Position numbers and translations under genes: made by a program
The notes under the pieces: generated by a model
Database searches by the model: none
Seen by the model: the letters and a program-made list of their open reading frames with translations, nothing else
Told to the model about the DNA's origin: nothing
Shown here: positions 5,417-37,635 of the stretch, piece after piece
Position numbering within the stretch: the first letter of the stretch is position 1
Layout: each line of letters opens with the position of its first letter
NCBI RefSeq assembly: GCF_030378165.1
Contig: NZ_CP119766.1
Location: forward strand, 5,394,001-5,458,000
Length of the DNA stretch: 64,000 bases
Source: Flavobacterium panacagri
GTDB taxonomy: Bacteria > Bacteroidota > Bacteroidia > Flavobacteriales > Flavobacteriaceae
Direction: 5' to 3'

Positions 5417-5840
5417 TTGAGTGCATTAAAACTTCTTTCTGATACACTTCGTTACGAAGATTTGTGCTCGAAAAACGATGATCTCTGGTATTAAAATACA
5501 GCTCAATTCCTTTTTCTTCGCAATATTTTCTTCCAGTAAAATCTCTGTCTTTATATTCGTCACCTAAAATTCGAACGTCTAAAGCAAATGCTTTCAAAAT
5601 ATCTTCTAAATCCTGCTCCGTAGCATAAGGAACAATTTCATCAACAAACTTACACGCTTTTAACTGTATGTAGCGTTCCACTACAGTCTGTGTTGGTTTA
5701 TTTTTAGTTGGGCGATCTAATGTTGGATCTGTTTGTAGACCAACAATTAAATAATCACAATGTTGTTTTGCTTCTTCAAGCATTTTAACGTGCCCCGCAT
5801 GTAACAAATCAAAAGCACTAAATGTAATTCCAGTTCTCAT
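5406..5840 (-). CDS. Small cytidylyltransferase-family nucleotidyltransferase
   Basis: This 144-residue protein is a single nucleotidyltransferase domain of the TagD/RfaE-C type. The HxGH signature appears as LLHAGHV near residues 12-18, and the C-terminal RFSSTNLR is the usual second nucleotide-binding motif (residues about 122-129). Related enzymes attach CMP or AMP to small phosphorylated alcohols or sugars, such as glycerol 3-phosphate or heptose 1-phosphate; the sequence alone does not decide which. It is the promoter-proximal gene of the leftward polysaccharide operon and overlaps manC by 11 bp. This suggests it provides an activated precursor or decoration for the same polymer. Confidence 0.8.
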   Translation of the reverse strand: MRTGITFSAFDLLHAGHVKMLEEAKQHCDYLIVGLQTDPTLDRPTKNKPTQTVVERYIQLKACKFVDEIVPYATEQDLEDILKAFALDVRILGDEYKDRDFTGRKYCEEKGIELYFNTRDHRFSSTNLRNEVYQKEVLMHSNGN

Positions 5841-6465
5841 CTGCTTAATGTTTTAAATTTAAAAATAGGTTTGTTAATGTAGTATGATTTCCAAAAATTG
5901 TACTTAACCATTTTACTGGGGTTTCGACGCTTTTTTTAAAATTTTAAAAAAGGGTTCCCCGTGAATAGTTACATTCTAACTACTCAAAAAAGAAAAAATA
6001 AATGGTATAAATTTTAATAAATTATAGTTTTTGACTGCTCTAAAATGATTTAAATTCTAGTATTGAAAAAACAAAATTTAGAGCTATACAAACAATATAT
6101 TCACTATAATAATTTAAGATAAAATTATACTAATACAGTAGATGAGTAATTTGTTTTTTGGCGTTAAATGTCCTTAATAAGGAAATTTTACTATAAAAAG
6201 CATCTATAATTTTTGAGCCTTGGAATTAAATTTACCACTTAGTTTATAGATAAAATGTCTGATACCTATAAAGGTCATTTTTCTAAGTTCTATTAACCAC
6301 TAGAACTAAAAAATTCTTCTTTAAAAAGAAATCAGAATCTCAATATTATCTATCTCGGAATGCTATTTTTTTCAAAGATTAAAAAAGATTATTTACCAGT
6401 ACAAAAGGTTATCTTTTTTTAAAAACAACTAACTATTTACAAATACATTTAATACAGTTACAATT
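5841..6465. other. Long divergent intergenic region, polysaccharide operon / upxY
   Basis: About 625 bp with no supported gene. It must hold the promoters and leaders of the leftward polysaccharide operon and of the rightward upxY gene. A near-perfect A/T palindrome (CTTTTTT-AAAATTTT-AAAAAAG type) lies at about 5,930-5,952. I found no clean TTG-N19/20-TAnnTTTG promoter on either strand. Confidence 0.5.
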
Positions 6466-6933
6466 ATGAAATGGTATGTAGTATACACCAAACCTAAGTG
6501 GGAAAAAAGAGCTGCAGAACAATTAAGCAAGTTTAATATAAACTGTTATTGCCCTGTCATCAAAAAAGTGCAGCAAAGATCAGATAGGAAAGTAAAAGTA
6601 GAAGTGCCATTGTTTAATCATTACATATTTGTACAACTAGCAGAAAAAGATAGAAATCTTGTATTCCATTCTCCTGGCGTCGTTCGATTTTTATTTTGGC
6701 TTGGAAGACATGCTGTCGTAAAAGATCAAGAAATCGCAACTATTAAAGAATGGCTTAATACTGGAGATACAGCTTCAGAAATATCTGTTATGCAATATCA
6801 AATTGGAGACAAGATACATTTAAACTCTGGCCCCTTCTGCGATCAGAATGCAGTTGTCAAAGATATTACAAAAACGCATTATGTATTAATTTTAGAATCT
6901 TTAGGATATGTTTTAAAAGTAAAACACAAATAA
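6466..6933 (+). CDS. UpxY-type NusG-family transcription antiterminator
   Basis: A 155-residue NusG paralog. The N-terminal NGN domain starts with MKWYVVYTKPKWEKRAAEQL and contains VPLFNHYIFV. The C-terminal part (about 105-155) resembles a KOW-like barrel with GDKIHLNSGPF. Members of the UpxY family bind elongating RNA polymerase and let it read through the leaders of polysaccharide operons. In Bacteroides they are usually the first gene of the operon they control. Here the gene is alone, has its own terminator at 6,943-6,990, and is divergent from the polysaccharide genes. It would therefore have to act in trans on the leftward operon, or belong to another locus. Class is confident; the target is inferred. 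Confidence 0.88.
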   Translation: MKWYVVYTKPKWEKRAAEQLSKFNINCYCPVIKKVQQRSDRKVKVEVPLFNHYIFVQLAEKDRNLVFHSPGVVRFLFWLGRHAVVKDQEIATIKEWLNTGDTASEISVMQYQIGDKIHLNSGPFCDQNAVVKDITKTHYVLILESLGYVLKVKHK

Positions 6934-29159: not shown

Positions 29160-29669
29160 TTATCTTATTCTATTTTGAATCTGATTCAGCCTTTGAGACA
29201 AATCTCCCCTAACCTCAATCACCTCTATCTCAAAATCAGTAATTAATTTTCCGATAATATCATTAACCCTCCATCTAAGCTCAGGCAATTCAGAATCCGA
29301 ACATAAAATTCTATCAGGTTCTTCAATAGGAACAAAGACAAAAACATCAATTTTTTCAATTACATTTTGAATTTTATTAAATACACGTTGAAAATCCAAT
29401 GTATTATCAACCGCCAAAGCATAAGCTAAAAGATCAATTGGACAGCGGTCAAAAATAGCGCTTTTATCACTTCTCATTATTTGCTTTAAAGAATACTCCA
29501 ACTGCATCATATAATCATCTGTTGTAGGTGTTTCAGAGAAAACAAAACCCATATCTTCTAATTCAAAATAAGGCTCGGGATAAAAGTCGTAACCAGGGAA
29601 AGATTCATGCAGTTTTTCCGCCAATGTGGTTTTACCAACCAAATGAGCTCCTAGTATTACTATTCTCAT
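29160..29669 (-). CDS. Small P-loop ATPase / nucleoside-kinase-like protein
   Basis: A 169-residue protein with a Walker A motif near the N-terminus (GAHLVGKTTLAEKL at about 7-20). A DRCPIDLLAYAL segment around 75-86 resembles the substrate-binding DR motif of deoxynucleoside kinase-like and AAA_28-type ATPases. FVFVPIEEP at about 106-114 fits the strand and loop after Walker B. No helicase or nuclease motifs are present. It is the last gene of the leftward island and is separated from the truncated helicase gene by 92 bp. It may phosphorylate a small molecule; whether it belongs to the defence system or is a passenger is unresolved. Confidence 0.65.
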   Translation of the reverse strand: MRIVILGAHLVGKTTLAEKLHESFPGYDFYPEPYFELEDMGFVFSETPTTDDYMMQLEYSLKQIMRSDKSAIFDRCPIDLLAYALAVDNTLDFQRVFNKIQNVIEKIDVFVFVPIEEPDRILCSDSELPELRWRVNDIIGKLITDFEIEVIEVRGDLSQRLNQIQNRIR

Positions 29670-29761
29670 CCCATTAATGTTTTTTAAATTAATCCCCCTT
29701 TACAGCGTTGGTAAAACTTGAAAAATTCAGCTAATTCTTTTGAGTATTTAATAATGCGGCT

Positions 29762-30640
29762 TCAATCAAAAGTACGTAAAGACATTTTGTATGTTAAATG
29801 ATTTGAGAGTATTCCGGAGGGAGTTTTACTTCTTTTATCCAAAATTTCCGTATTTGCAAAAACAATAAAATTATCTTTAGCTCTTGAAACAGCTACATTT
29901 AACATATTTGGCTTATTATCTCTATCGAAAAACATTGTCCCGGAATCTCCTTTTCCGTAAAACATTGAGAATAAAACAATAGGTCTTCCAGCTCCTTGAA
30001 GCGCATGAACAGTTCCTAATTTTAATGCATCAATATTAAACCCTGCATTTTTTAAAGTTTCATAACCCTCTGTTTTATAATTCCCAATGTTCTGATTTAT
30101 AGCTAAAGTAAAAACCTCTTTCACGTAATCTATATATTCCTTATAATTCACATATTCTTCAAGACCTGCAGCAGTTGCATTATCAATATTTTCAACAGTA
30201 CCAAATACAAATTCAGTTCTTTCATCCGCTAAAGGCTCTAAATACTTTCTTTGAAAAACTGGAAAATATTCCTCTGGAACTTGCAGTCTGCCATTTCTAT
30301 TGAGTTTAGCAAAATACCAAAACGGAAACTTAGCCTTTTTGTCTTTTAAGAAAACAAGATTTTCTGTTGTTGGTTTTATTTTTATTGGAGAAATCAATAT
30401 TTGAACTTCATCTAAAGCTTCCCAATTCTCATTTTCTTTACTTAAAGCGCCTTTCTTTTTATTTATTCGTACTTCTTCAAAATCGATCAGGTTATTTACA
30501 CTGATTAAATCTTCTATTTGCTGCATGTCAATTTCAAAACTATCAATTTCAAAATGTTGAAGTTTTTCAATATTGAGATCTGCTTTTAAAGAATCAGATA
30601 AACTTTTCTTCCAATAGGTTAACCACTTTTTATATTCCAT
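29762..30640 (-). pseudogene. Superfamily 1 helicase lacking its ATPase core (internal deletion)
   Basis: A 292-residue open frame. Residues 1-185 resemble the N-terminal, non-motor part of long Upf1/DNA2-like helicases (YKKWLTYWKKSLSDS; a KFPFWYFAKLNRNGRL segment). Residues about 200-262 carry motif V/Va (GTVHALQGAGRPIVLFS) and motif VI (LNVAVSRAKDNFIVF) of superfamily 1. Walker A, Walker B and motif III, which should lie between, are absent. The junction falls at about residues 183-205, and the frame is intact across it. This looks like an in-frame internal deletion of a protein that would normally be around 1,000 residues. It cannot hydrolyse ATP by itself. It is the gene after the Lhr-like helicase (97-bp gap) in the same orientation. 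A retained non-catalytic role is possible but unproven. Confidence 0.7.
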
Positions 30641-30737
30641 AATTTCTCAATCTCACAAATTTATAATCAAATATCTTTTCGCTTCATGATAAATATAAAA
30701 ATCTTTAAATTTTGACGCTAGCTTGTAAAATAAAACA

Positions 30738-32867
30738 CTACAAATTATCTACAATTTCAGTAACACTAAGTAAAAATTCCTGAGTCTGTTTTATATCAAA
30801 ATAATTTTGTTTCATCGACTCTATTTGATGTTTCACTGGTAAATAAATACCCCATTTTGATGTAATTAAGGAATTCGGATTTTTTTCTAATTCTTCTGTT
30901 ATAATTTCCTCAATAACATCCACATTTGAAGTTATGTAATTAAATTTATCCAGAAAATCATCTTTAGATTCATCAATATCGAATGAACTTGTGCTATCGT
31001 CTAATGAGTTCTTTATTTCAGAAAATTTAAAAAGAAATTGTAATGTTCTATTTACTTTAGTACCTGTAAAAGTGTAGAATACTAGTTTTTTTTCTGAAGT
31101 CAATAATGGTCTTTCCATCTCGATATTCTGGATGTCAAAAACAGAAAAATCACTCCGCATCTCATCTAACTCATCTAAAGCTTCTTCATTTAACTCAGTA
31201 ATTTTTTGGTCTTGATATAGTATCTCAAACATCTTATTTCTAATTCTCGGATGTACCATTCCGCTTCCACCAAAAAAAAGAGGTTTTTTACCATCATTTG
31301 CAGGTTTAACTTCAATTTTTTTTGCTTTGAAATCGACAAAAATAATTTTCCAGATTTTAGCTGCTAATAAAATATTTTCATCTTCTCTAATTTGTGGCGT
31401 TAATGGAATTTCACCTATTTTTATTCCTGCATTCACAACCTTAAAATTATCTTCAACAGTAAAGGCACTGTAAAAATCTCTGTTATTGACGATTTTTTCT
31501 CCTTCAATTCCTATAATAACTTCATCTCTTAATTTTTCGAATAAATCAATAGCAATTAAATGGTTTAAAATCTCTTCAATATCTTTACTCTCAATATCAT
31601 TGAATGCGAAGTTTTGCTTTAGTATTTTAACTAATTCATTAAAATTAATACCAGAATTTCCTTTTGTTATTGATAAAGCCTGATGTAGTAAAAGATCATA
31701 CGCTAAAGTCATTGCGTCTTTTGGCTCAATAAAACCTTCTTTATACAATTCCCAGCAAGCCAATGACTGTAATAAGCTCCATTTATCTGTTGCATACAAA
31801 TGGAGAAAACTTTTTGCACCATCTCTTCTTCCGCTTCTACCTATACGCTGTATTAATGATGCAATACTGTGTGTTGCATCTATTTGCACCACTTGATCAA
31901 CAGAACCAATATCAATTCCGAGTTCTAAAGTTGAAGTACAGGAAATGCAAAAATTTTGTCTGTTGTTGCTTTTTGCAAAATATTCCACATATTCCCTCAC
32001 TTCTTTATCAACTGATGAATGATGCGAAAAATAATTTACATGACCATTTAGTCTTTCAGAAAGTTTTTTTAATTTAACAGCTACAACTTCTGCAAGCCCT
32101 CTGCTATTTGGAAAAATTAAAACCTTACTATCCTTAGTTTCTAAATACAAATCTTTAATAAGACTCAAGGGTAAGTCATCACCGTCTTTTTTAAAATATT
32201 TAAATTTAGCTTCAATTTCTTTTGATGCACTATCCCTTAAAACTATTGTTGGAACGGTAGTACCGGCAAATTTCTTGACCTCATCATAATCCCCCAACGT
32301 TGCTGAAAGTCCAATTAGCCTAAATTGATTTTCATTTAAATCCTGTAATCTGGATAAAATAGACTTTAATTGTACACCTCTTCCCGATCCAATAAAAGAA
32401 TGAATTTCATCAATAACTACAAATTTAAGGTTCGAAAAAAGATGCTTTACGTTAAAAGGTTTGTTTGAAAGCATAGCTTCCAAAGATTCGGGCGTTATTA
32501 AAACCACTCCAGACGGATCTTTTATTAATTTCTCTTTTAAAGTTGCATTTGCTTCTCCATGCCATTTTACAACATTAACTTCTAAGTTTTTACACAATTC
32601 TTCAACTCTGTAGAACTGATCATTAATTAATGCAATAAGAGGCGAAATATATAAAACCTGAACTCCTTTTTCGTTGAAATTTACTTGAGATAAAATAGGC
32701 AGAAAAGCTGCTTCAGTTTTTCCCGAAGCAGTTCTAGATACCAGAATATAATGGTTATCTGTTGTTAAAACTCTTGAAATTGCTGCATTTTGAATGGGAC
32801 GTAATTGTTCCCATCGTTTATCACGAATATATTTTCGGATGGGTTCTGATAATAATTCAAATGACAT
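30738..32867 (-). CDS. Lhr-like superfamily 2 DEAD/DEAH-box helicase (Shango SngC / BrxHI-like)
   Basis: A 709-residue protein with complete SF2 motifs: TASGKTEA (Walker A, 46-53), TPES (~125), DEIH (153-156), SAT (188-190), and QRIGRSGRR (340-348). The C-terminal 350 residues carry a winged-helix-like and beta-rich region as in Lhr-type proteins. Such helicases occur in BREX type 2 (BrxHI) and as the helicase of the three-gene Shango anti-phage system. Its start overlaps the stop of the ATPase gene by one base (TAATG), so translation is coupled. It probably acts on DNA or RNA with the ATPase and the TerB protein during infection. Family identity is firm; assignment to Shango is by gene order. 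Confidence 0.85.
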   Translation of the reverse strand: MSFELLSEPIRKYIRDKRWEQLRPIQNAAISRVLTTDNHYILVSRTASGKTEAAFLPILSQVNFNEKGVQVLYISPLIALINDQFYRVEELCKNLEVNVVKWHGEANATLKEKLIKDPSGVVLITPESLEAMLSNKPFNVKHLFSNLKFVVIDEIHSFIGSGRGVQLKSILSRLQDLNENQFRLIGLSATLGDYDEVKKFAGTTVPTIVLRDSASKEIEAKFKYFKKDGDDLPLSLIKDLYLETKDSKVLIFPNSRGLAEVVAVKLKKLSERLNGHVNYFSHHSSVDKEVREYVEYFAKSNNRQNFCISCTSTLELGIDIGSVDQVVQIDATHSIASLIQRIGRSGRRDGAKSFLHLYATDKWSLLQSLACWELYKEGFIEPKDAMTLAYDLLLHQALSITKGNSGINFNELVKILKQNFAFNDIESKDIEEILNHLIAIDLFEKLRDEVIIGIEGEKIVNNRDFYSAFTVEDNFKVVNAGIKIGEIPLTPQIREDENILLAAKIWKIIFVDFKAKKIEVKPANDGKKPLFFGGSGMVHPRIRNKMFEILYQDQKITELNEEALDELDEMRSDFSVFDIQNIEMERPLLTSEKKLVFYTFTGTKVNRTLQFLFKFSEIKNSLDDSTSSFDIDESKDDFLDKFNYITSNVDVIEEIITEELEKNPNSLITSKWGIYLPVKHQIESMKQNYFDIKQTQEFLLSVTEIVDNL

Positions 32868-34180
32868 TACAATTCCTCTATGCTATCCATTAAAACAATA
32901 TCTGGTCTTTCATCAGAAATTTCAATCTCTCCAAATAGTTTCGTTTTATCCAAATCAGGATTTTGTCTTAGTATGTTTAAAATATTTAAAAAATCTCTAA
33001 TAACTTCTCTTGGCGTTAAAAACTCTGAAGCTCCAGGTTTATTAAACATTTCCTCCATGAAGTTTTGTATATCTTCATCAGAAACATTTGTTGCTATTTT
33101 ATAATTATAATCAAAGATTGCTTTAAGTTTTATTAAAAGCACAAAAATTTCGTTATGATCGAGCGGCAATAATTTAATTACAGGCTGTGCAAAATCCCTA
33201 ATTTCTGCAGTCTCAAACTTGTTTGTTTCTAATCGTGATTTTAAAGCTTGATAACTAAACAAACCCCTTCTTTCATTTTCTAATACTTCTTTAGTCCCTG
33301 CAAAATTGAAAAAAAGATTACTTACTTTTCCCTGAAAACAATCATTATATATTGACAGAATCTTTTCATAATTTTTTTCTCTCGTTGCAGAAACCGATAT
33401 TTTGTAAAGATTTATAGCTTCATCAAGATTGATCATAAAACCACTATATCCCATACTTACAAACAATTTGGTAAAGTTTTTAAGCATGTCGTAATAATTT
33501 AAGTCGTTTATGATTTCTCTAACGCCTAAATCTTGTTTGGCTTCCGTTTTGGTATTATATTCACCTTTTAACCATTTTAAGGCATTTCTTCTTAATTGCT
33601 CATCATCTTTGATATAACCTTCGTAATATTTCATCACAACTGTTCCAAAATCAAAACCTCCAACTTCGGTTATTTCGTTGATAGTTTTCATTATGTTATT
33701 CTGAATAAGACTCAAATATTGTTCTTCTCTAATATTTTCTAATGGAATATTATTCGATTCTGCCGTTTTCATAACCACCTGCTCTATCCATTTTTCCATT
33801 AAAGTTGGTAATGCCCCGCCTTCAGGTTTAGTCTGAATAGCAACATTGTCCATAATAGCAGCATACAATGCTACTCCTTTTCCATCATTTGAATAAAGTC
33901 TGTTATCTGGCGTAAAATCTGCATTTGCTACCACAAACTTTTGTTTTAGTGCTACTGTATTTAGTAAGTGCAACATGAATGATTTTCCAGACCCAAAATC
34001 TCCGATCCAGAATTTAACCATACTATGTCCATTTTTTACATCTTCTAATGCGCTTACAACTGCATCAATTTCCTCGGACCGTCCAACCGTAATATGCTGA
34101 ACACCAATTTTAGGGACTACACCTCCAATTAATGAATTAATAATTGCTGTGGCTTCTTTAGGTTTTATGTTTTCTGTCAT
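32867..34180 (-). CDS. BREX-type P-loop ATPase, DUF2791 family (Shango SngB / BrxD-like)
   Basis: A 437-residue ATPase. Walker A is GDFGSGKS at 60-67, preceded by VGRSEEIDAVVSAL, and Walker B is FMINLDE at about 248-254. The HITVGR...FWIGDFGSGKSF layout is typical of the BREX ATP-binding domain family (DUF2791, BrxD). Partners of this family are usually Lhr-like helicases, as here. In Shango the ATPase, a TerB-like protein and a helicase form the minimal system. The gene overlaps the upstream TerB gene (ATGA) and the downstream helicase (TAATG), so the three are produced together. No nuclease, methyltransferase or PglZ phosphatase gene is nearby, which argues against a complete BREX locus. 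Confidence 0.85.
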   Translation of the reverse strand: MTENIKPKEATAIINSLIGGVVPKIGVQHITVGRSEEIDAVVSALEDVKNGHSMVKFWIGDFGSGKSFMLHLLNTVALKQKFVVANADFTPDNRLYSNDGKGVALYAAIMDNVAIQTKPEGGALPTLMEKWIEQVVMKTAESNNIPLENIREEQYLSLIQNNIMKTINEITEVGGFDFGTVVMKYYEGYIKDDEQLRRNALKWLKGEYNTKTEAKQDLGVREIINDLNYYDMLKNFTKLFVSMGYSGFMINLDEAINLYKISVSATREKNYEKILSIYNDCFQGKVSNLFFNFAGTKEVLENERRGLFSYQALKSRLETNKFETAEIRDFAQPVIKLLPLDHNEIFVLLIKLKAIFDYNYKIATNVSDEDIQNFMEEMFNKPGASEFLTPREVIRDFLNILNILRQNPDLDKTKLFGEIEISDERPDIVLMDSIEEL

Positions 34181-35928
34181 TTTGCTAAAATTCGGTTATA
34201 GTAGTTTTCGTTAATAATATAAAAACCATCTTCTTCCTCAATTAAAACATCATCTAATGTCTCGTAACATAATTCATTAATACTTTCTATCAATTGGTTT
34301 TTAAACATTCCTTTTGATTTTGCGAAAGTTTCAAAATCAGCCTGAAGAACAGAAAAATTTGCTTTTGAAAAAGAATCAAGAACATCTTGCTGTATTTTTG
34401 TAAAATTGAGTAAGCTGTCATAAAGAGATGTATCTATTGTGCTGTATTCAGAAACAGTCTGATTCTCTGGTTCTGAATTAATTACCAACACTGTTTTTAA
34501 ATCTTCCTGTTCCTCTTCATCTCTAAGATATTCATTAAGTAGCTCAACCGTTCCCGAATGTTTTTCATGAACCTGCTGAATGGCATTTCTATCCAATTGA
34601 ATTTTTTTTCGTTTAGCTGTGTAAACATTTTTTACAGCTTCTAGTGCCTTTTCTAAATCTTTATCCTGAATAAACTCATTGATTATAGCTTGAAAATCAT
34701 CAAATTGATCTCCACTTTTAAACAAAGTTTTTTGCACTGTTACACCTAGCGGTTTATGATCAAATTTTACCGATTTCAAATCATAATGAATATAATAAAC
34801 ATACAATGCAAGTGCTGCTTCTTTACTATGAACTGCGATAAACTTTGATGCATCATAAAAAATATTTTCAACCGATGGATTATCTCTATTTAAATTTCCA
34901 AGATTTATAATCTGATTTATAAATATGTCTGAATCTTTATTAAAATTACTAGTCAATTCATCAAATTTAATTTTCCAACGAGTTGAATTTTGAATATTTA
35001 ATTCATAATCCGTTTTTTCATCTGGCTCATTAATTGTTGGCGCATAAATCTGTAATATTTTATTTAATCGTATTAGTATTCGATCGTTGTATTCATCTTT
35101 TACAGCATTCGATATATAGGTTAGATCTACATTCAGTTTTCTTTTGTGTCCAAAAATTTCGCGAACAGTATTTTCACAGTATTTAAAAATATTAGAATGA
35201 AGTTCATTTATAACAGTTTCTATAGAGTATTTATAGTTATTACTTTCTGGTTTATAGTTATAATGTTTTTGTGCAATAATATCAGCTACTGCAGTAAGTT
35301 CTTTATGTAATGAAGAGGAATCTTTTACACATCTTTCATCTAATCTTTTAATGACAGACAAATAAAACTTCATGATTTCGATAGCGCAAAACTCAATATT
35401 AAAGAAATTATTTGCCGGATTCCAAATGTTGTTTAAAAGCACAGCATCTTCATCTGTTAGATTTAATTTGACTCTAAACTGAAATCCCAATTTTAACTGA
35501 TCATATCCCGAATAATCATCATAATAATTTTCCTGTCGGCGAATTCTCTCTGAATCTTTCTTTAAATCATGTTGTTCTAATTTTTTAATAAAATGAGAAA
35601 CACTATACGTTTTTGTTTTAGGATAGTTTCTTTTTAATTCATTTAATTCTTTTTCTAAACGAGCAATATTTTTATGAGTATCAAATTCTTTTAAAAGATC
35701 GAAAAGCAAAACAAATGCATAATTGTTATTCCCATCAAGATCTGTATAAATACCGTTTAAAAAGTTAAACTTGAAAGTTTTATAAAAAACACGCTGCTGG
35801 TTTGTCGCCGAATTTATTTCTGAATACGAATATACATATTGATGTCCCCAATAAGGAACATTTGAAGGTTTTGAAATATTTGAAAGACTGTAAGATTCAC
35901 CTGTAATGTCTATAATAGAATTATCCAT
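34177..35928 (-). CDS. TerB-N/TerB-C domain protein (Shango SngA-like)
   Basis: A 583-residue cytosolic protein. Residues about 25-110 fit the TerB-N domain (PYWGHQYVYSYSEIN, then FYKTFKFNFLNGIYTDLDG and YAFVLLFDLLKEF). The last 85 residues fit TerB-C (LQADFETFAKSKGMF, IESINELCYETLDD, LIEEEDGFYII). The middle is helical and charged, with no catalytic motif I can name. TerB-N/TerB-C proteins have been linked by comparative genomics with P-loop ATPases and helicases in stress and phage-response loci, and a TerB-like protein is the first component of Shango. The gene is translationally coupled to the ATPase. The BRCT gene lies 47 bp upstream. Confidence 0.8.
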   Translation of the reverse strand: MDNSIIDITGESYSLSNISKPSNVPYWGHQYVYSYSEINSATNQQRVFYKTFKFNFLNGIYTDLDGNNNYAFVLLFDLLKEFDTHKNIARLEKELNELKRNYPKTKTYSVSHFIKKLEQHDLKKDSERIRRQENYYDDYSGYDQLKLGFQFRVKLNLTDEDAVLLNNIWNPANNFFNIEFCAIEIMKFYLSVIKRLDERCVKDSSSLHKELTAVADIIAQKHYNYKPESNNYKYSIETVINELHSNIFKYCENTVREIFGHKRKLNVDLTYISNAVKDEYNDRILIRLNKILQIYAPTINEPDEKTDYELNIQNSTRWKIKFDELTSNFNKDSDIFINQIINLGNLNRDNPSVENIFYDASKFIAVHSKEAALALYVYYIHYDLKSVKFDHKPLGVTVQKTLFKSGDQFDDFQAIINEFIQDKDLEKALEAVKNVYTAKRKKIQLDRNAIQQVHEKHSGTVELLNEYLRDEEEQEDLKTVLVINSEPENQTVSEYSTIDTSLYDSLLNFTKIQQDVLDSFSKANFSVLQADFETFAKSKGMFKNQLIESINELCYETLDDVLIEEEDGFYIINENYYNRILAK

Positions 35929-35975
35929 ACATCCTAAATTTAATTTTATTAATACTATTCTCTGAATCGGATTTA

Positions 35976-36878
35976 TTATAATAAATCGTCAATAAGATCA
36001 GAAAAATCAAATTCATGTATAAGCATAATAGAATGCCCTTCTTTTCTTAAGTTGATAGCTTTTTCAACTTTTCTTCCGTAGCATGAAAAAGCCCAAGCTG
36101 GGTTTCCATTATCACCAACAATTAAATAATCAGTCTTTTTAGTAAGGCTGTCTGTTGGTATACCGCCAAGTTTAATAATATCCCTCTGAAGATTCTCTCT
36201 ATTTCCTCTTTGCAAAACGCCTGTAATGCAAAATGTTTTACCTTCAAAAACTACCTCTGGTTCACTTGTACAAAGACCCGAAATGTTTACATCAATTGTT
36301 TCATTTTGAATCTTCTCTCTTATTTCATGATCTTGAATTTGTACAAATTGTTTAAAAAAAGCCATCAAAACCACTCTTTCTTCTTCTTCAATTTTATTGT
36401 CAGATAAAATAGAAAGAACCAAACTTCTTATTTCATCATAAGGATAATACGTATTCAAATGTTCATTTTCATCCAGCCATTTTTGAAGATCGTAAATTTC
36501 TTTATCAGTAATAATCCCATCTGCTAAAATACCGTGACAAATACCTTGCAAGATCTGAAGATCTGAAGTTACTGCATTATAGTAATAATTATCCTTTTCG
36601 TATTTCTGACATAACCAATATAAATCTTCGATTATTTCTTTACGTGGAATTTTATTTGATATAGCCTCTTCAATAATAATCATGAATTCGTTCAAAGGAT
36701 TACGACTCATTAGCTCTTTATGAGCAATAACCCACTTCTGAAGCTCATTTATTTCTTGGATATTAATTTCTTCCTCTAATTTAATACCTAATAAAAATCC
36801 TTTTAGAGAACTAATAGCTTTATCTGTTTGGGATTTTACAGTATACACTTTTAATAATTCCTGATCTATAGCTTTCAT
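35976..36878 (-). CDS. TerB-like / BRCT domain protein at the head of the defence operon
   Basis: The ATG at 36,878 (300 residues) is preferred over an in-frame TTG six bases upstream. The N-terminal two thirds are helical and contain two related segments, KGFLLGIKLEEEINIQEINE and ICHGILADGIITDKEI, each followed by LQKW. These resemble the acidic TerB-like helical fold. Residues about 207-300 form a BRCT domain of the type found in NAD-dependent DNA ligase and exonuclease-like proteins: GKTFCITGVL, LGGIPTDSLTKKTDYLIVG, then KVEKAINLRKEG. BRCT domains of this class bind DNA or protein partners. The combination with TerB-like helices directly upstream of a Shango-like trio suggests a DNA-end or damage sensor for the system. 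That role is inference. Confidence 0.75.
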   Translation of the reverse strand: MKAIDQELLKVYTVKSQTDKAISSLKGFLLGIKLEEEINIQEINELQKWVIAHKELMSRNPLNEFMIIIEEAISNKIPRKEIIEDLYWLCQKYEKDNYYYNAVTSDLQILQGICHGILADGIITDKEIYDLQKWLDENEHLNTYYPYDEIRSLVLSILSDNKIEEEERVVLMAFFKQFVQIQDHEIREKIQNETIDVNISGLCTSEPEVVFEGKTFCITGVLQRGNRENLQRDIIKLGGIPTDSLTKKTDYLIVGDNGNPAWAFSCYGRKVEKAINLRKEGHSIMLIHEFDFSDLIDDLL

Positions 36879-37319
36879 AATCAAGTAATTTTCTTATAAT
36901 TATAAATAATTATTTTGATTTAATTTTTTTTATAAAGTGTAAATATTAAGCTTTATCTTTTATAATCATTACGGAAAACCATAATCCCAAAAATTATATT
37001 AAAAATATTATTCTAGGATTAAAAACACTATAAGTAGATATACCTGTTTTATAATTTATCTAATAGCTCTTCAAATAAATCATTTAAAAATTATTTGAGA
37101 CTAATTAAAATACTAGTGTCGTGTAAGATTGTACGTTGACATTCAAAAAACTTAAGTTAGTTTTCATTATAATATTTATTAAAAAAAATAAGCTATTTAT
37201 TGAGATTTAGTAGTGAGAGAATAGCTTACCTAAAGAAATGTCAACCATCATTTTTAATTAATGATGCGTTATAATAAAAGATAAACACATTTAATTTTTG
37301 ATCAAAATAATACAAAAAC
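36879..37319. other. AT-rich upstream region of the defence operon
   Basis: About 440 bp without a supported gene. A 9-bp inverted repeat GTTGACATT / AATGTCAAC sits at about 37,135-37,143 and 37,239-37,247. It presumably contains the promoter of the leftward defence operon, but no clear TTG/TAnnTTTG pair was found. Confidence 0.45.
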
Positions 37320-37347: not shown

Positions 37348-37351
37348 CTTG

Positions 37352-37425
37352 TGATCCCAGAAGGATTCGAACCTTCGACCTACGCATTAGAAGTGCGTTG
37401 CTCTATCCAGCTGAGCTATGGAACC
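37352..37425 (-). tRNA. tRNA-Arg(TCT)
   Basis: A 74-nt cloverleaf: acceptor GGTTCCA with TGGGATC (two G-T pairs), anticodon TCT within ACGCACTTCTAATGCGT, T arm GAAGGTTCGAATCCTTC. Confidence 0.95.
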
Positions 37426-37462
37426 GAACTAAAATTTTTATAAAAAAAACTTTAAAAAAAAG

Positions 37463-37537
37463 TCGGGGTGGCAGGATTCGAACCTGCGGCCTCCTGCTCC
37501 CAAAGCAGGCGCGATAACCGGGCTACGCTACACCCCG
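37463..37537 (-). tRNA. tRNA-Pro(TGG)
   Basis: A 75-nt cloverleaf: acceptor CGGGGTG with CACCCCG, anticodon TGG within CCTGCTTTGGGAGCAGG, T arm GCAGGTTCGAATCCTGC. It is the middle gene of a three-tRNA operon. Confidence 0.95.
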
Positions 37538-37551
37538 AGGCAAAATTTAAG

Positions 37552-37635
37552 CGGAGAGACAGGGACTCGAACCCTGGCGACGGTTACCCGTCGACAGATT
37601 AGCAATCTGCTCCATTACCGCTCTGGCACCTCTCC
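37552..37635 (-). tRNA. tRNA-Ser(GCT)
   Basis: An 84-nt cloverleaf with the long variable arm of serine tRNAs (GTCGACGGGTAACCGTCG). Acceptor GGAGAGG pairs with TCTCTCC, anticodon GCT within CAGATTGCTAATCTG. It is the first gene of the tRNA operon. Confidence 0.95.

Follow-up and report, generated by a model that had tools for sequence, protein, structure and literature searches.

To our knowledge, how the Shango anti-phage system recognises phage is not known, and no mechanism was seen in the literature that we looked at; the question raised by the locus described in the present study is whether a fourth gene, at the head of a Shango operon of Flavobacterium panacagri, bears on that recognition. 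The locus lies in a stretch of 64 000 nucleotides (the window; positions 5,394,001 to 5,458,000 of contig NZ_CP119766.1, the host genome being one 5.98-Mb contig), and its five open reading frames (ORFs) are all on the minus strand, exactly where a first-pass annotation had placed them. From head to tail they are the gene for a 300-amino-acid (aa) protein with TerB-like repeats and a BRCT domain, which we call BT, then sngA, sngB and sngC, and finally a shortened helicase gene. Our reading, held at slightly better than even confidence, is that this operon represents a four-gene Shango clade in which the TerB part has been split off and BT would serve as a DNA-end-sensing adaptor. On the sequence side this draws on the identity of the operon, the recurrent adjacency of BT, its one fusion to SngC, the purifying selection on it, its domains and its conserved pocket residues, from which DNA-end binding by BT, its docking on partner proteins and defence by this locus would be expected.

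The first-pass annotation had likened the three middle genes to the Shango components, and the PADLOC profiles bear this out. The sngA product (34177..35928; 583 aa) matches SngA at 5e-43 over profile positions 100-524 of 528, that of sngB (32867..34180; 437 aa), a BrxC/D-type ATPase, matches SngB at 1.4e-166 and that of sngC (30738..32867; 709 aa), a superfamily 2 (SF2) Lhr/BrxHI-like helicase, matches SngC at 3.1e-212. All three are present, adjacent, on the same strand and in the expected order, so that by profile similarity the trio is a Shango set, and its anti-phage activity would be predicted from homology. The paper that describes Shango (SngABC) for Pseudomonas aeruginosa PA14 gives a modest plaque reduction (10-100-fold) and generally strong protection in liquid (PMC10250203). 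Like that system, as presented there, the window operon combines a TerB-type protein, a BrxC/D-type ATPase and a DEAD/DEAH helicase; unlike it, the window SngA has TerB_C only and a BRCT-TerB gene precedes the trio. SngC has also been placed with BrxHI, DruE and DpdJ among SF2 helicases that may form a defence clade of their own (PMC12278908).

Domain scans agree with the ATPase and the Lhr-like helicase proposed in the annotation, with BrxC_BrxD (PF10923, 4e-147) called in SngB, and DEAD, Helicase_C and a sub-threshold WH_Lhr in SngC. The TerB-N/TerB-C protein proposed for sngA was confirmed in its second half only: TerB_C is called at 2e-28, whereas TerB_N has no Pfam call and is very weak at best by hhalign (probability 15%), and neither a Pfam scan nor hhalign detected an internal TerB in the window SngA. 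The structure model of SngA (mean pLDDT, the predicted local distance difference test, 79.2; pTM, the predicted template modelling score, 0.50) matched no PDB entry at E<=0.001, no solved relative of SngB was found by sequence, and a TerB family search of the host's own genome gave two matches, neither at the Shango locus. The overlapping starts and stops that had been noted hold within the trio (sngA/sngB 4 nt, sngB/sngC 1 nt), but the flanking genes are set apart by gaps of 47 nt (BT to sngA) and 97 nt (sngC to the short helicase). The alternative that the trio belongs to a bacteriophage exclusion (BREX) system was rejected, in line with the annotation, which had argued against a complete BREX: SngB does match BrxD (7.6e-45) and SngC does match BrxHI (4.8e-131), but the Shango profiles score far higher (553 vs 152 bits for SngB, 705 vs 436 bits for SngC) and the operon holds no further BREX gene, with no pglZ, brxC or methyltransferase among the six proteins of 29160-36884.

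The head gene BT (35976..36878) had been described as TerB-like with a BRCT domain, and both parts stand. The BRCT domain, of LigA/RFC1 type, covers residues 209-300 (35979..36254; PF00533, 4.6e-11) and is nearest to those of LigA and RFC1, and its phosphate-pocket residues are kept almost throughout 56 family members (T219 in 55, G220 in 56, R227 in 53 and K270 in 56), so that by sequence both fold and pocket point to a BRCT of that type. The N-terminal half comprises two TerB-like repeats, residues 5-97 (36588..36866), a four-helix unit in the model which aligns with the second repeat at an hhalign probability of 99%, and residues 98-192 (36303..36587), which align with the TerB region of clade II SngA (clades defined below) at 95% (E 3.3e-8). 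A Pfam scan of the window BT itself gave no PF05099 (TerB) match; 14 of the 56 family members match at E<=0.05 (best 1.3e-5), and with the profile-profile comparison these family matches show a TerB likeness beyond chance. Structure matches gave no TerB structure for this half, the lists being filled by BRCT and hence uninformative. The whole protein is a full-length match to PHROG 3989 (7.8e-73). Ratios of nonsynonymous to synonymous substitution rates (dN/dS) were 0.05-0.14 for BT, 0.09-0.12 for sngA, 0.11-0.14 for sngC and 0.013-0.025 for sngB; BT is therefore under purifying selection, like sngA and sngC, with sngB held more strictly. According to PMC9293004, the isolated RFC1 BRCT binds recessed 5′-phosphate DNA with a Kd (dissociation constant) of about 10 nM. 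The RFC1 pocket residues were not found stated in the literature searched. From its domain type, BT is probably a DNA-end-recognising protein.

The first-pass annotation had also raised the question of whether the BRCT-TerB gene accompanies the trio in other Bacteroidota, and it does, mostly adjacent to it and once fused. In a genus sample of 398 genomes SngB was found in 19 and BT in 14, with both in eight; in all eight BT lies directly 5′ of sngA, and the co-occurrence has a one-sided Fisher p of 1.3e-8, a test that, like all Fisher tests here, counts related genomes as independent. In a ninth genus genome (G591) the contig runs out near the start of sngA, which follows BT. From a BT alignment search of GTDB contigs we took the best 80 of 125 relatives by similarity, and SngA or SngB homologues stand at 27 of these 80 BT loci. 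Within those 27, BT is adjacent and 5′ of sngA in 22 (gaps of -41 to 75 nt, depending on the start codons chosen) and 5′ with an intervening ORF in one; it lies directly 3′ of sngC in L121 and L136 and three ORFs after sngC in L148, and in L145 (Mucilaginibacter pedocola) it is fused to SngC in a single 1027-aa ORF, with SngC at 1-694 (61% identity) followed by BT at 735-1023 (53%). Each Shango gene occurs within three ORFs of BT in 24-26 of the 80 loci, and the next family in no more than seven. In addition, on a Hymenobacter plasmid the sngC of a clade I Shango is followed by a 217-aa diverged relative with a single TerB and a BRCT; a plasmid search with BT at 1e-20 gave no match, this relative being more diverged, and diverged BT partners may therefore be undercounted. 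We found no paper containing both 'Shango' and 'BRCT' in the literature searched, whose scope excluded most subscription papers and bioRxiv, and the link may be published.

Shango loci fall into two clades, separated here by how high their SngB scores against that of the window (about 770-950 bits for clade I, to which the window belongs, vs 313-353 for clade II) and not by a tree, with L222 (SngB 110 bits in a 964-aa ORF) excluded from both. Three clade II SngA proteins that were scanned (two from Bacteroidota, one from Selenomonadales) contain TerB_N, TerB and TerB_C, whereas seven clade I SngA besides that of the window have TerB_C only, in three cases with TM2 in front. A phylum sample of 395 genomes held SngB in 21 genomes and 22 loci, the window's own included. 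With the 19 genus loci and five of the phylum sample taken together, BT is adjacent in nine of 24 loci of clade I vs none of 15 in clade II (p = 0.006), or none of 13 when two clade II loci with <900 bp 5′ of SngA are left out (p = 0.011). This distribution suggests that BT could supply the TerB part in trans in clade I. It is a tendency and not a rule, because 15 of the 24 clade I loci have neither BT nor a TerB replacement nearby. The strict form, in which BT is present exactly when SngA lacks TerB, was rejected, as the BT-less clade I loci are also without TerB or a substitute in the fetched stretch.

Many clade I SngA proteins start either with residues that look hydrophobic on visual inspection (L098, L100, L103, L108, L129 and L144) or with TM2 (L075, L078 and L118); part of the clade thus looks membrane-anchored, and the window SngA does not. 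Two BT-less Shango loci (L081, 6174-7115, and L218, 10131-11075, both on the minus strand) have in BT's place a 313-315-aa protein, with 62% mutual identity and no Pfam match, which is perhaps an alternative Shango partner. A further BT-less Shango locus (L076) carries an exonuclease (RNase_T) and BRCT protein 3′ of sngC (5635-6507, minus strand).

BT is also found well outside Shango. Relatives are encoded at 55 IMG/VR loci (L288-L342), with a helix-turn-helix repressor-like gene just upstream in 26 and a recombinase-like gene nearby in 13, each label having been read from one member sequence. In Vibrio phage K139 (L343) the gene order is cI, the BT homologue (orf2), glo and int, glo being noted for phage exclusion, and prophage lysogeny regions in general often carry BT homologues. 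The K139 protein shares the TerB-BRCT layout and 27% identity with BT; unlike BT, the PHROG 3989 phage copies sit in lysogeny regions without Shango, whose genes occur in the fetched stretch of none of the 55 IMG/VR loci. We also ran PADLOC on 20 proteins encoded in the neighbourhood of BT, the helicase itself included, with part of the scan at E<=1e-10; matches were to PDC-S37-type helicase-nucleases (three loci), PDC-S06, PDC-S46, OLD, a type II methyltransferase, a GajB-like helicase and a JetC-like protein, and seven of the 20 had no PADLOC match. Occurring in both prophages and defence islands, BT is therefore a portable element, which on our reading clade I Shango has adopted.

The mechanism that we propose is as follows. 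SngA would retain TerB_C, with the tandem TerB-like repeats and the BRCT domain placed on the separate BT protein; on phage DNA, whether entering the cell or replicating, the BRCT would recognise ends, gaps or recessed 5′ phosphates, the TerB repeats would dock BT on SngA and SngC, and the SngB ATPase and SngC helicase might then act on the DNA so marked. A fourth gene with a recognisable BRCT of DNA-end-binding type, tied to the trio by adjacency, selection and one fusion, would give a concrete handle on the Shango trigger. Several points weigh against this. BT is absent from 11 of the 19 genus Shango loci, and scanning the fetched stretches of BT-less Shango loci with the TerB profile revealed no substitute. 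At 53 of the 80 BT loci no Shango gene is present in the fetched flank, some of these being on short contigs, and the three full-length BT found outside the host's own genome in a family sample of 299 genomes have no Shango genes within the 20 kb fetched; the Shango-free phage loci described above count on the same side. The BRCT-DNA contact in whole RFC is unlike that of the isolated domain (PMC9293004), and the same BRCT pocket binds phosphopeptides in other proteins.

More tentatively, and as a possibility we rate clearly below an even chance, PHROG 3989 as a whole might be a portable phage-DNA-end sensor of the lysogeny operons of temperate phages, one copy of which a Bacteroidota Shango clade would have adopted as its TerB/recognition subunit, up to fusion with SngC, the four-gene Shango then being triggered by free 5′ ends. 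BT would in this way give a testable role to a phage protein family that PHROG annotates as of 'unknown function'.

It is rather unlikely, in our view, that BT instead works on its own, as a defence or superinfection-exclusion gene which prophages disperse and which ends up in defence islands, and that its place before sngA reflects use of a shared promoter and not joint function. The 53 Shango-free BT loci, the 55 IMG/VR loci, the place of the K139 homologue after cI and before the exclusion gene glo, and the adjoining PDC-S37, PDC-S06, PDC-S46, OLD, methyltransferase or JetC-like genes would all fit such a gene; however, it does not readily account for the fusion to SngC, for adjacency with short gaps on either side of the trio in several genera, or for a strong co-occurrence in which no other neighbour comes close to the Shango genes (24-26 loci each vs seven). 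We regard as improbable a role for BT as a regulator or safety device that holds SngABC in an inactive state as long as no damaged DNA or DNA ends are present, and not as a targeting subunit. BT is indeed the first gene of the operon, and its homologues lie beside repressor-like genes in prophage operons (26 of 55 loci), but Pfam scans found no DNA-binding regulator domain in it, the 11 BT-less genus loci exist without such a device, and the helicase fusion fits a subunit better.

The adaptor reading leaves the tail gene (29762..30640) outside the system. The first-pass annotation had called it a superfamily 1 (SF1) helicase without its ATPase core, and domain scans and comparison with an intact relative show that the missing core is real: in the 292-aa product, residues 1-199 of an MkoC-like SF1 helicase of 995 aa run directly into its end from residue 902, a 2.1-kb in-frame deletion form from which residues 200-901 are missing. 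The junction (30045..30055) is the 11-bp sequence TTAAAAAATGC, which in the intact gene of Flavobacterium sp. HSC-32F16 (G547) is found at either end of what has been lost here. The relic retains part of AAA_12 and two MkoC segments, and among proteins of 0.55-1.75 times its length it matches others in two separate parts only, residues 1-199 or about 195-285; the 292-aa short form turned up in no other genome. The intact 995-aa G547 relative matches Mokosh MkoC (PADLOC PDLC03924) over residues 3-993 (9e-291); unlike MkoC, it ends at profile position 967 of 1136, and the window copy also lacks the helicase core, so that the tail gene does not amount to the Mokosh type II pairing of an intact SF1 helicase with the C-terminal part of MkoC.

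Helicase matches occur in seven of the 398 genus genomes, intact in G547, F. amniphilum (G483), G603 and G514, interrupted in G541 and as relics in G000 and F. salmonis (G482). The intact gene lies 5′ of BT in G547 and G483, and stands without SngB or BT in G603 and G514. After sngC, only the C-terminal end remains in G482, the first ~56 codons in F. collinsii (G692) and the first ~32 codons plus a 64-bp end stretch in G547, a pattern that would fit one ancestral gene order with four different decays of the helicase after sngC. Over its first 195 codons the relic has a dN/dS of 0.146 vs 0.127 for the intact pair G547-G603, which shows no relaxation, and rates therefore do not decide the matter of decay. 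The short helicase is most likely a decaying leftover neighbour and probably not a working part, recent loss fitting the relic best. Thus only one of the two extra genes once taken to mark a Shango variant, BT, proves to be a recurrent partner. That the short helicase is a working component of an extended Shango, as first annotated, is very hard to credit: its open frame, unrelaxed rate, remnants after sngC in three relatives (hence an old neighbourhood) and intact copies 5′ of BT would allow it, but we rejected it on the uniqueness of the short form, the differing remnants, the intact copies without SngB or BT and the restriction of close relatives beside BT and Shango to L092 and L098 in the 80-locus set.

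Next to the relic, and outside Shango, is a gene for a 169-aa AAA_28 ATPase (29160..29669, minus strand), which also follows the intact helicase in G603. There the helicase and AAA_28 gene come directly after the same tRNA-Ser, -Pro and -Arg cluster that marks the island's site in the window (37351..37635, minus strand), and relative to G603 the window carries BT-sngABC between 30674 and 37314, before the helicase, which we infer from this comparison to be an insertion in the window and not a loss in G603. The same cluster flanks Shango in G482 (in the opposite orientation), G692 and G682. It serves as a shared integration hotspot, with Shango on one or other side in four species and the helicase and AAA_28 gene in G603 (L073, L074, L077 and L223), and second tRNA-Arg copies are present in G682 and G603.

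About 90-105 bp 5′ of the BT start lies a motif, TATGGTTTTCCGTAA (36969..36983, minus strand), whose 14-base form is ATGGTTTTCCGTAA and which, upstream of the operon, is also written TGGTTTTCCGTAA. In relatives, the same 13-14 bases precede BT, the sngA of BT-less loci or the intact helicase gene, and also Gabija GajA, Cas9 and PD-Lambda-3_B genes (motif loci L067, L071, L073, L077, L079, L112, L144 and L223; L248, L249 and L253). With up to one mismatch, the host's own genome has 12 sites and the reversed control 14, and 66 genus genomes hold 22 exact sites vs 24 of the control, so that the motif is not enriched genome-wide. In 14 genomes chosen partly for holding the motif there are 22 exact vs 8 control sites, and a same-strand ORF starts 34-263 bp downstream at 19 of the 22 vs two of the eight; the motif is possibly a shared promoter element of defence genes.

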